Part shown: positions 57,461 to 61,092 of the stretch, piece by piece
Layout: every line of letters starts with the position of its first letter
Position numbering within the stretch: the first letter of the stretch is position 1
Assembly (NCBI RefSeq): GCF_017875325.1
Contig: NZ_JAGGMN010000001.1
Location: 2,376,140-2,440,139, forward strand
Direction: 5' to 3'
Source of the DNA: Methanofollis sp. W23
GTDB lineage: Archaea > Halobacteriota > Methanomicrobia > Methanomicrobiales > Methanofollaceae
Length of the DNA stretch: 64,000 nt
Notes under the pieces: generated by a model
Databases searched by the model: none
What the model was told of the DNA's origin: nothing
What the model saw: the letters and a program-made list of their open reading frames with translations, nothing else
Position numbers and translations under genes: made by a program

Positions 57461-57949
57461 CTATCCCTGTGCATGTGAGATGATATGCAGCAACTCAGGG
57501 ACGATGATCTGCTCGGTGGCAAGGGTGACCGCCCCGGTCGATCCTGGAACACAGAAGATCACTTTTCCCCCGGCGACTCCGGCGGCGGCACGCGAGAGGA
57601 GGGCCGAAGTCCCGATGTCCTTATACGAGAGCATCCTGAAGAGTTCCCCGAACCCCTCGATCTTCTTCCCGAAGAACGGTTCCACCGCCTCAATGGTGCA
57701 GTCGTCAGGGGTCAACCCCGTCCCGCCATTGAAGATCACGGCATCGGCCACCGAGAGCGATTTGAAGAGCGAGGCCCTGATCGCCTGGAGATCGTCTTTT
57801 ACAATCGCGGTGTGCACGACACGATACCCTGCCGCCTCAAGGAGGTCTCGGATCGCCTTCCCGCTTGTGTCGGTCTCTTCGGTCCGCGTCGAGGAGACGG
57901 TCACCACCGCGACGGTCACCTCGATATCTTTGATATGTTCTGGTTTCAT
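57461..57949 (-). CDS. moaB: molybdenum cofactor biosynthesis protein MoaB/MogA family
   Basis: This 162-residue protein adenylylates molybdopterin (or tungstopterin) before metal insertion. VAVVTVSSTRTEETDTSGKAI starts the fold. VIFNGGTGLTPDDCTIEAVEP is the molybdopterin-binding loop with the conserved Asp, and FRMLSYKDIGTSALLSRAAAGV and FCVPGSTGAV complete the active-site edge. In methanogens it serves the formylmethanofuran and formate dehydrogenases. It borders the origin region and reads away from it. The start is ATG 57947-57949. Confidence 0.92.
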   Translation of the reverse strand: MKPEHIKDIEVTVAVVTVSSTRTEETDTSGKAIRDLLEAAGYRVVHTAIVKDDLQAIRASLFKSLSVADAVIFNGGTGLTPDDCTIEAVEPFFGKKIEGFGELFRMLSYKDIGTSALLSRAAAGVAGGKVIFCVPGSTGAVTLATEQIIVPELLHIISHAQG

Positions 57950-58010: not shown

Positions 58011-58037
58011 CCCCGACCCCTTTATTTCCACTGGAAC
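58011..58037 (-). promoter_or_regulatory. origin recognition box (ORB) 1
   Basis: On the minus strand the core reads GTTCCAGTGGAAATAAAGGG followed by GTCGGGG, matching the archaeal ORB pattern (TTCCA-N-TGGAAAC-AAAGGGG with a G-rich tail). It faces the origin from the moaB side. Confidence 0.78.
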
Positions 58038-58173: not shown

Positions 58174-59057
58174 GATCGAGATCACTCCTGATCATAATTA
58201 GATCATGGACGATCAGACCTCAAATCACCCCTGATCATACCCAGGATCACCCCCAATCATGGCCACATCTCCCATGATCATACCCAGGATCACCCTCGAT
58301 CATACTGATCACAGACAGATCCTCCGTGATCATACCGCTGATCTCCTCAGATGATACCTCTGATCATCAACAACTCTGATCGCCAGATCATTCTGATTGT
58401 CAGATTGATTGTCGGATCTCTGATAATTCTGATCCCTCATAATTCTGATCTCTATGAGATCCCTGTGATCAGTCTCTAGAGATCCCTGTGATCAGAGATC
58501 ACCCTGATCCTCCTGGTTCTCCTGACCCTCCCAGTTCCCCTGATCCCCAGATATTTTGATCACGGAGACCACAGATCACCCCTTCATCTTGATCCCTGAT
58601 CGTCATCTCCGCGATTTTCGACAGTCATGATTTTCGATTGTTATGATTTTTATGACCTTTGTAATTCTTGACCTCCCTGGTGATAGGTCATCATGACCTT
58701 TGATTTTTCAGGATCTCTGATTTTCAAGATCCTTGATTCCTGAGATCCCTGAGTCCCATCTGTTTTGATCCCTCTACCCCTCGATCTCTATGAGTGCAGA
58801 TCATACTGATCTCTGATTCTCACTTCTCTGGATCTCCATGATTCTTTGATCCCGACAATTCCTTGATCTCTATGATTTCAGATCGAGATGATCCTGGATC
58901 CATGATCAGGATCCAATCTGATCCTTGATCTGAAATCTATTGGAGAATTGATCTGCTGGATCACAGAGAAGAGATCTACGATCAGATCACGCGCCGATCC
59001 CTGATCACTGATCATGATCTGACCAGATCAGCGTGATCTCTGATCTCTGATCAGATC
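58174..59057. repeat. GATC-dense tract (about 60 GATC sites in 0.9 kb)
   Basis: By direct count about 62 GATC tetramers fall in 885 bp, against about 3-4 expected by chance. They are embedded in variants of TGATCCCTGATC, AGATCACC and CTGATCTCTGATC. Local direct repeats include TGATCATACCCAGGATCACC at 58232 and again at 58275, and GAGATCCCTGTGATCAG at about 58456 and 58479. The tract has no open frame and no fixed period, so it is not a CRISPR array. Confidence 0.85.
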
Positions 59058-59110
59058 GGATATATAGTACAAGTCGCGAACCATACCACAAGCTGTTTTT
59101 CACTGTATAA

Positions 59111-59136
59111 AAGGAAAACAGGATCCTGTTTTCCTT
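59111..59136. repeat. 26-bp perfect palindrome
   Basis: AAGGAAAACAGGA (59111-59123) is followed directly by its exact complement TCCTGTTTTCCTT (59124-59136), centred on GGATCC. It lies 2 nt before ORB 2 and just after the GATC tract. Confidence 0.85.
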
Positions 59137-59138
59137 GC

Positions 59139-59166
59139 GTTTCCAATCGAAACAAAGGGGTGGGGG
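59139..59166 (+). promoter_or_regulatory. origin recognition box (ORB) 2
   Basis: GTTTCCAATCGAAACAAAGG continues as GGTGGGGG, an ORB with the inverted TTTC/GAAA core and a long G-rich tail. Confidence 0.78.
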
Positions 59167-59232
59167 TGATCGCTTGTGATCATGCGAGATCAGGCTGATT
59201 TTTCAGAAAAGAGGATCATATTTATAGGTTAT

Positions 59233-59253
59233 CTCCAATGGAAACAAAGGGGT
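59233..59253 (+). promoter_or_regulatory. origin recognition box (ORB) 3, overlapping the orc1 promoter
   Basis: CTCCAATGGAAACAAAGGGG and a following T make an ORB whose right end runs into GGTTATATCCC (59251-59261), the best TATA box for orc1. Binding of Orc1 here would be expected to block its own promoter. Confidence 0.75.
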
Positions 59254-59311
59254 TATATCCCCTCCCCACCATGAGATTAGTGTTTACTCTACTCGCTCTG
59301 CAGTTGATATT

Positions 59312-60595
59312 ATGTCTGAAAATGATGATCAACCCCTTGGTCTCTTCCAGAAATTCCTGAGCAACAACCGTATTTTCAAGAACCGGGAAGTGCTCAGGCA
59401 CTCATACCGACCACAGATCCTCCCCCACAGGCGCCCCCAGATCGATGCGATCGCCTCCATCCTCGCCCCTGCCATCAAGGACGAAACTCCCTCGAATATT
59501 CTCATCTATGGGAAGACCGGGACAGGGAAGACTGCCTGCGTCCGGTACGTCGGGAGCGAACTTGAGAAGGTCGGCGCCGGGGTCGGGACCGGGTGCCGGG
59601 TGGTCCACCTCAATTGTGAGGTGATCGACACCCAGTACCGTGTCCTCGCCCAGATCGCCAAGAGTCTTGAGGACCTGGATGCTACCGCAAGTGACCGCGC
59701 CCGCGCTCACATCCCGATGACCGGGTGGCCGACCGACCAGGTGTACGCCGAACTCAAGAACCAGCTTGAGGCGACCGGGGGGGTGCTCGTGATCGTCCTC
59801 GACGAGATCGACAAACTCGTCAAAAAAAGTGGGGACGAGACCCTGTACAACCTCACCAGGATCAACGCCGACCTCCAGGGCTCGAAGGTCTCGATGATCG
59901 GGATCTCCAATGACCTCAGGTTCACCGACTTCCTCGACCCCCGCGTCCTCTCCTCTCTCTCTGAAGAGGAGATCGTCTTCCCCCCATACAATGCCCCGCA
60001 GCTCTGCGACATCCTTGCCCAGCGCGCTGAGATGGCCTTTGTCGAAGGAAGTCTTGAAGAAGGGGTCATCCCGCTCTGTGCCGCCTTCGCCGCCCAGGAA
60101 CATGGGGACGCCCGCCGCGCCCTCGACCTCCTCCGCGTCTCAGGGGAACTTGCAGACCGCGAGAACGCTGCAGAGGTGAAGGAGAAGCACGTGCGCATGG
60201 CCCTTGAGAAGATCGAGACCGACTCGATGATCGAGTGCATCTCGACCCTGCCCACCCAGAGCAAGGTCGTGCTCTACTCGATGCTCCTCCTCGAGCAGAT
60301 GGACAAGAAGATCTTCACCTCTGGCGAGGTGACCAGGGTCTACCGCGAGGTCTCGCGGATCGTCAACATCGACCCCCTCACCCATCGACGGATCACTGAT
60401 CTTATCTCAGAATTAAATATGCTCGGGGTGATCAACACCCGCGTCGTCTCGAAAGGCCGATATGGAAGGACAAAAGAGATGTGGTTTGACAGCAACACGA
60501 AGAAAATACAGGAAGTGCTCGCGAAAGACCCGAGGCTTTCTGAGGAACGTCTCGCCCAGGTCGACCTCAACCGCCTGAAGGCATCGTTTCGGTGA
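59312..60595 (+). CDS. orc1/cdc6: origin recognition protein Orc1/Cdc6
   Basis: This 427-residue AAA+ initiator binds ORB sites and loads the MCM helicase. Walker A is IYGKTGTGKTACVRYV and Walker B is VLVIVLDEIDKLV. Sensor 1 lies in VSMIGISNDLRFTDFLDPRV and sensor 2 near HGDARRALDLLRVSGELA. The C-terminal winged helix (after about residue 310) includes VYREVSRIVNIDPLTHRRITDLISELNMLGVIN and KGRYGRTKEMWF, the wing that contacts ORB DNA. The N-terminal basic patch FKNREVLRHSYRPQILPHR is normal. It is downstream of the origin and coupled to the Lrp gene (overlapping GTGA). Confidence 0.95.
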   Translation: MSENDDQPLGLFQKFLSNNRIFKNREVLRHSYRPQILPHRRPQIDAIASILAPAIKDETPSNILIYGKTGTGKTACVRYVGSELEKVGAGVGTGCRVVHLNCEVIDTQYRVLAQIAKSLEDLDATASDRARAHIPMTGWPTDQVYAELKNQLEATGGVLVIVLDEIDKLVKKSGDETLYNLTRINADLQGSKVSMIGISNDLRFTDFLDPRVLSSLSEEEIVFPPYNAPQLCDILAQRAEMAFVEGSLEEGVIPLCAAFAAQEHGDARRALDLLRVSGELADRENAAEVKEKHVRMALEKIETDSMIECISTLPTQSKVVLYSMLLLEQMDKKIFTSGEVTRVYREVSRIVNIDPLTHRRITDLISELNMLGVINTRVVSKGRYGRTKEMWFDSNTKKIQEVLAKDPRLSEERLAQVDLNRLKASFR

Positions 60596-60600
60596 TTGCA

Positions 60601-61092
60601 ATGGATGACAAAGATCGTTTGATCCTCTATATCCTGGAGGAAAACAGCCATGTTCCGATCGAAGAACTGGCAACCATGGTAGAGCTCCCTGCACATGACG
60701 TCGAGGACCGGGTCAGGGCGCTGGAGGCAGCAGGGGTCATCAGAAAATACTGCGCGGTCATCGACTGGGAAAAAGCCGGTGACGGTGCGGTCACCTCGAT
60801 CATCGCCCTGAAAGTCTCCCCTGAGCGCAATTACGGCTATGACAAGATCGCCGAGCGGATCGCGCGGTTCAGAGAGGTGAAGACTCTCCGTCTGGTCTCA
60901 GGGCGCTATGATTTTATCGTCGTCGTCACCGGGCGGACGATGCAGGAGGTCGCCCGTTTTGTCTCAGAGCACATCGCCCCCATGGAGCAGATCACCGAGA
61001 CCGCGACCCAGTTCGTGATGAAGACCTATAAGGAGAATGGGACGCCGTACGATGAGCGGATCGCCGGGGAGCGTCTCCCGTACTCATTCTGA
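60601..61092 (+). CDS. Lrp/AsnC-family transcriptional regulator
   Basis: This 163-residue protein has an N-terminal helix-turn-helix (MDDKDRLILYILEENSHVPIEELATMVELPAHDVEDRVRALEAAGVIRKYCAVID) and a C-terminal RAM ligand-binding domain (VTSIIALKVSPERNYGYDKIAERIARF ... LRLVSGRYDFIVVV). The family binds amino acids and controls metabolic genes. The adjoining aminotransferase, 8 nt downstream, is a likely target or co-transcribed partner. ATG 60601 is used; GTG 60592 overlaps the orc1 stop. Coupling to orc1 would tie its level to the initiator. Confidence 0.9.
   Translation: MDDKDRLILYILEENSHVPIEELATMVELPAHDVEDRVRALEAAGVIRKYCAVIDWEKAGDGAVTSIIALKVSPERNYGYDKIAERIARFREVKTLRLVSGRYDFIVVVTGRTMQEVARFVSEHIAPMEQITETATQFVMKTYKENGTPYDERIAGERLPYSF

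Follow-up and report, generated by a model that had tools for sequence, protein, structure and literature searches.

A dense GATC cluster at the putative orc1 replication origin of Methanofollis and the methylases that may act on it

The intergenic region considered here lies within a 64,000-nucleotide stretch of the genome of Methanofollis sp. W23 (the window, to which all positions refer). On one side it is flanked by a gene for a molybdenum cofactor synthesis protein of MoaB/MogA type (57461–57949, minus strand; TIGR02667 with an E-value of 3.4e-49, below the cut-off of that model, and TIGR00177 above its cut-off), and on the opposite side by the orc1/cdc6 replication initiator gene (59312–60595, plus strand; NF001625, E-value 1.6e-180). 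Most of the region is taken up by a tract of 62 GATC sites (58174–59057), which ends about 255 bp ahead of the orc1 start codon. As a sequence-only reading of this DNA had proposed, the tract thus sits just upstream of orc1 and between opposed ORB-like repeats: an inverted copy, CCCCTTTATTTCCACTGGAAC, at 58017–58037 (minus strand), and two forward copies (plus strand) at 59140–59166 and 59231–59257, the latter just before orc1. Those relatives that have enough upstream sequence carry a counterpart of the inverted ORB at the distal end of the region. Between the tract and the forward ORBs lie a block conserved across the genus (GGATATATAGTAC...ACAAGCTGTTTTTCACTG, 59058–59112), which borders the tract, and a perfect 22-bp palindrome, GGAAAACAGGATCCTGTTTTCC (59113–59134), with counterparts in loci L102–L111. 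Since its arms are kept and its centre differs in the clade of genomes G005, G011 and G009, the palindrome may be a dimeric binding site or a hairpin, independent of GATC. Inside the tract, a stretch without GATC (58602–58711) is AT-rich, with 68% AT at 58611–58670, and could possibly be an unwinding element.

The adjacency of orc1/cdc6 to ORB repeats in opposed orientation is the layout of archaeal Orc1/ORB origins, and from this layout we infer that the moaB-orc1 region is a replication origin. Several single-contig genomes in the collection likewise start just before this orc1, and the GC skew of sampled stretches gave no origin mark at the tract. Directly 3' of orc1 there is also a gene for an Lrp/AsnC-type regulator (60592–61092; matches below model cut-offs), which might conceivably act as an origin regulator.

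A direct count gives exactly 62 GATC in the 884 bp of the tract, in line with the approximate figure (about 62 in 885 bp) that first drew attention to it. The accompanying estimate of 18 times chance is correct against an expectation of 1/256, but it overstates the contrast because the ordinary GATC rate of the W23 genome is already 8–11 per kb in most sampled stretches; the roughly sixfold excess over the rate of the window itself (10.2 sites expected) is fairer. The background was assessed in 15 sampled stretches of the same genome together with the window, and by genome-wide pattern scans. Over these stretches and the window, about 300 kb of sampled sequence, 885 bp contain 8.5 GATC on average (s.d. 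4.1), with a maximum of about 20 outside the tract. Dinucleotide-preserving shuffles of the tract (n = 1000) yielded 27.7 ± 3.6 GATC and never more than 41, and therefore the excess resides in the tetramer itself. In a genome-wide scan for three GATC within 22 bp, the tract accounted for 11 of 96 such places and none of the other kilobases listed held more than three, leaving the tract as the sole cluster; a blastn search with the tract found no second copy elsewhere in the genome. Identical tracts at non-origin sites, which the sequence-only reading had named as counter-evidence, were thus found by neither approach. That reading was also right that the tract is no single simple tandem repeat: its internal repeats are short, imperfect arrays of 7, 9, 16 and 22 bp, and the spacing of GATC is irregular, mostly 5–36 bp. 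GANTC was rejected as the true motif, since the tract has 4 such sites where 2.2 are expected, and AGCT, GTAC and CTNAG, the motifs of other methylases of Methanomicrobiales, show no enrichment in the tract region, in which no known RNA was found either.

A GATC cluster stands in the orthologous place in all 11 Methanofollis genomes with a readable region, and comprises 23–96 GATC in up to 1.5 kb. In the interval from the inverted ORB (or, in one genome, the contig start) to the conserved block there are 10–84 sites, at densities of 4.6–9.4 GATC per 100 bp versus about 1 elsewhere. The maximum number of GATC per 400 bp is 15–46 in Methanofollis, whereas 77 other Methanomicrobiales, in which the cluster was not seen, have a median of 5 and a maximum of 12. 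The enrichment is therefore shared by relatives, as had been anticipated, but as a trait of the genus only. It is a non-coding motif cluster at a putative origin, in an orthologous place in relatives, as in the clusters treated by Blow et al. (2016, PMC4752239). A mild excess of GATC ahead of orc1, 12 per 400 bp, was noted in Methanoculleus sp. FWC-SCC1 and in one Euryarchaeota MAG (L020 and L018), and is perhaps a weaker form of the cluster. Within Methanofollis, the repeat units and the bases flanking GATC vary between species and the common element is GATC, as expected if a recogniser of four base pairs, such as a methylase, is what counts.

Comparison of close species supports the earlier suggestion that the GATC tetramer in the tract is itself under selection. 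In close-species alignments, GATC positions were the same in 251 cases and changed in 4, versus 266 and 34 for neighbouring bases. In two close pairs that bear a DpnA-like enzyme (see below), GATC was kept in 58 of 59 cases versus 74% for other tetramers (G006/G008; Fisher p = 2e-6) and in 41 of 48 versus 24% (G001/G004; p = 3e-16). The first of these, at 7% divergence, is the cleanest pair because, in alignments of more distant genomes, GATC itself serves in part as the anchor. When columns lying in a GATC of either genome are considered, the difference holds in three pairs (p = 2e-6, 0.02 and 3e-16). In the pair bearing Dam, G005/G011, GATC positions counted in this manner change as fast as others, and it is the site count alone that is retained (26 and 29).

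Which enzyme might write on these sites? A Dam-like methylase had been suggested, and this held in part. Dam (PF02086, D12 methylase) is absent from the W23 genome, and attention therefore turned to PF01555 enzymes, of which W23 has a stand-alone methylase of 262 aa (G000:C1:698245–699030) with no endonuclease gene apparent beside it. Its neighbours, sugar-isomerase-like and aminotransferase-like by inspection, recur in three other genomes. Among plasmid proteins, this beta-class methylase is best matched by second methylases from DpnII-type systems. One of them, on pSRQ700, is 49% identical over 97% and has a D12 methylase on one side and a DpnII endonuclease on the other, in a system that we take to be LlaDCHI (GATC). 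In a phylogenetic tree, the W23 enzyme groups with DpnII-type second methylases, not with CcrM, at moderate support (89/72), and it is accordingly classed as DpnA-like (M2.DpnII); from this kinship it is predicted to recognise GATC. An identity as CcrM (GANTC) is disfavoured: the enzyme scores 239.8 bits on the CcrM model, whose cut-off is 830, and the C-terminal extension of CcrM is missing in the alignment.

The DpnA-like enzyme is found in eight Methanofollis genomes, and three others (G003, G005 and G011) lack it and encode a full Dam relative (E-value 1e-77 or better), that of G005 matching DpnM (2dpm) with an E-value of 3e-52. Across 199 Methanomicrobiales genomes, 134 have Dam and 36 the DpnA-like enzyme; the two occur together in 5 genomes versus 24 expected by chance, an avoidance whose p-value is inflated by genome relatedness, with bearers of the DpnA-like enzyme spread over four families. 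The two enzymes stand in for each other, and thus they most likely share a common target, GATC; it is plausible that nearly every Methanofollis genome has a GATC adenine methylase. Since Dam is present order-wide (134 of 199) and the cluster in one genus, the methylase does not need the cluster: it occurs without one in Methanomicrobiales at large, and within the genus the two broadly go together, G009 being a partial case. C5-methylases (PF00145) include enzymes that recognise GATC, but only 5 of 12 Methanofollis genomes have any, and they therefore cannot account for a genus-wide cluster. In addition, G002, which also has the DpnA-like enzyme, encodes a more distant D12 methylase (G002:C1:1768877–1769581, L148), possibly part of a restriction system. 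The search for a GATC-binding protein, also prompted by the sequence-only reading, yielded no SeqA relative in 12 Methanofollis genomes at E-values up to 1, with a positive E. coli control; in the control search, Methanosarcina acetivorans gave a weak match below the curated cut-off.

One genome offers a view of what may follow when the writer is lost. The DpnA-like gene of G009 (L279 2739–3133, G009:C13) has lost about 130 internal codons, covering residues about 107–236, and its frame is changed. Dam was not found in this MAG of 88% completeness, and an intact enzyme may have been missed because G009 is a single assembly at that completeness. Its cluster is the smallest and thinnest of the genus (10 sites in 218 bp, 4.6 per 100 bp) and still well above background. 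The coincidence of the thinnest cluster with a broken enzyme is suggestive of a natural loss. G009 groups with the Dam-bearing G005 and G011; therefore, the ancestor of this group probably had a DpnA-like gene, which Dam replaced later in G005 and G011.

The comparisons above show the cluster and where it lies, that it is conserved, that GATC in it is under selection, and that two enzyme types are present and replace each other. We propose, with moderate confidence, that the tract belongs to the Methanofollis replication origin and responds to methylation. The stand-alone adenine methylase, DpnA-like in most species and Dam in others, would methylate GATC. A replication fork leaving the origin would then render some 30–90 sites within a few hundred bases hemimethylated at once, and until the methylase caught up, the origin would be marked as newly copied. 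The hemimethylated state might delay or permit the re-loading of Orc1/Cdc6 and MCM, either by way of a reader protein or because methylated adenine influences how the duplex opens next to the ORBs. Given that no SeqA was found in the genus, the reader would be another protein, or there would be none and methylated adenine would itself act on duplex opening. Our search of the literature found no methylation data or methylome papers for any Methanofollis. A bolder version, which we offer tentatively and rate as somewhat less than an even chance, is an adenine-methylation clock at an Orc1/ORB origin that arose independently of bacteria, in which a reader unlike SeqA would limit re-initiation, enzymes of Dam and DpnA type would replace one another as the writer, and loss of the writer would lead to decay of the array.

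Other explanations should be considered. The most durable of them, although unlikely, is that the GATC are sites for an origin protein (Orc1, a nucleoid protein or another factor) that reads unmodified GATC, methylation being incidental. This would fit a tract placed between ORBs, selection on GATC, the absence of detectable SeqA, and the lack of a cluster in most Dam-bearing genomes; however, a protein that acts by binding alone would not usually use a four-base palindrome whose flanks are free and whose spacing is irregular, and in G009 the broken methylase coincides with the thinnest cluster. Less likely again is that methylation of the cluster regulates the transcription of orc1 instead of origin firing, like the promoter GATC clusters of some bacteria. 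The tract does share its intergenic region with the orc1 start codon, but it spans several hundred bases and extends in the direction opposite to the promoter, as far as the inverted ORB close to moaB, and promoter methylation switches need only a few GATC sites.

One may also argue that short GATC units simply multiplied by slippage or unequal exchange in tolerant intergenic DNA and that GATC has no function. Short imperfect tandem arrays do exist in the tract, unit types vary between species, and GATC positions in the G005/G011 pair are replaced as fast as the background; nevertheless, we regard this as quite improbable, because close pairs keep GATC while the rest of the units changes (p = 2e-6 and 3e-16), the species-specific units are all GATC-rich, which is unexpected from slippage alone, and the tract is unique in the genome. 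Finally, it is scarcely credible that origin methylation is a strand mark for mismatch repair or a shield against some endonuclease: the stand-alone methylase would suit this role, but no endonuclease gene is apparent beside it in W23, and no genome-wide need for GATC is visible, since GATC in sampled stretches outside the tract is only slightly above the trinucleotide expectation.

A methylation-responsive origin of this kind would bear on how archaea stop an origin from firing twice. A dense, selected cluster with a writer that has been swapped and once broken is a concrete and testable system, Methanofollis species can be cultured, and the lineage resembling G009 is a natural loss experiment. 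If the proposal is true, origin control by GATC evolved on at least two occasions, around different initiators, and the reader would be a new protein to be found.

Among known systems, the obvious comparison is E. coli, in which GATC and Dam time DNA replication and oriC contains roughly 11 GATC. By analogy, the Methanofollis cluster looks like an archaeal counterpart of this bacterial timing: the origin is dense in GATC, and W23 has a predicted stand-alone GATC adenine methylase. However, the Methanofollis origin is of archaeal Orc1/ORB type rather than a DnaA origin, the sites between ORB and conserved block number 10–84 rather than about 11, no SeqA was found in the genus, and the W23 methylase is DpnA-like rather than Dam, which within Methanofollis is found in G003, G005 and G011. 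The second methylases (DpnA/M2) of DpnII-type systems, the closest relatives found (49% identity for that on pSRQ700), differ in turn, as on pSRQ700 the enzyme is part of a three-gene restriction system and in Methanofollis it stands alone.

A closer parallel in archaea is provided by haloarchaea, in which CTAG clusters upstream of orc1/cdc6 accompany a conserved stand-alone m4C methylase (Blow et al. 2016, PMC4752239). Both systems place a motif cluster before orc1/cdc6 at an archaeal origin and link it to a stand-alone methylase, but in Methanofollis the motif is GATC and the predicted modification m6A, the cluster is limited to one genus though the methylase is order-wide, and two enzyme classes alternate. 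Methylase-linked motif clusters also occur at bacterial origins, with TTAA in Arthrobacter and CTCGAG in Nocardia (PMC4752239), though these are dnaA origins with other motifs. As for the enzymes, a 2023 survey found a Dam-like stand-alone GATC methylase, HG3, in 15 of 19 Methanomicrobiales genomes (PMC10609329), and HG3 very likely corresponds to the Dam that we find in 134 of 199. The passages of that survey covered here report no GATC cluster at an origin, and W23 has the DpnA-like enzyme instead. Methanobacterium, Halorubraceae and Nitrososphaerota have Dam-like GATC methylases as well (PMC10609329). In the literature covered, no GATC array at an archaeal origin was found. The sequence-only reading had held that a GATC system in a methanogen would be new; in view of the haloarchaeal CTAG clusters this applies less to the principle than to its form, and what appears to be new is that the motif at an archaeal origin is GATC, with adenine as the predicted target base, and that the enzymes are exchangeable.
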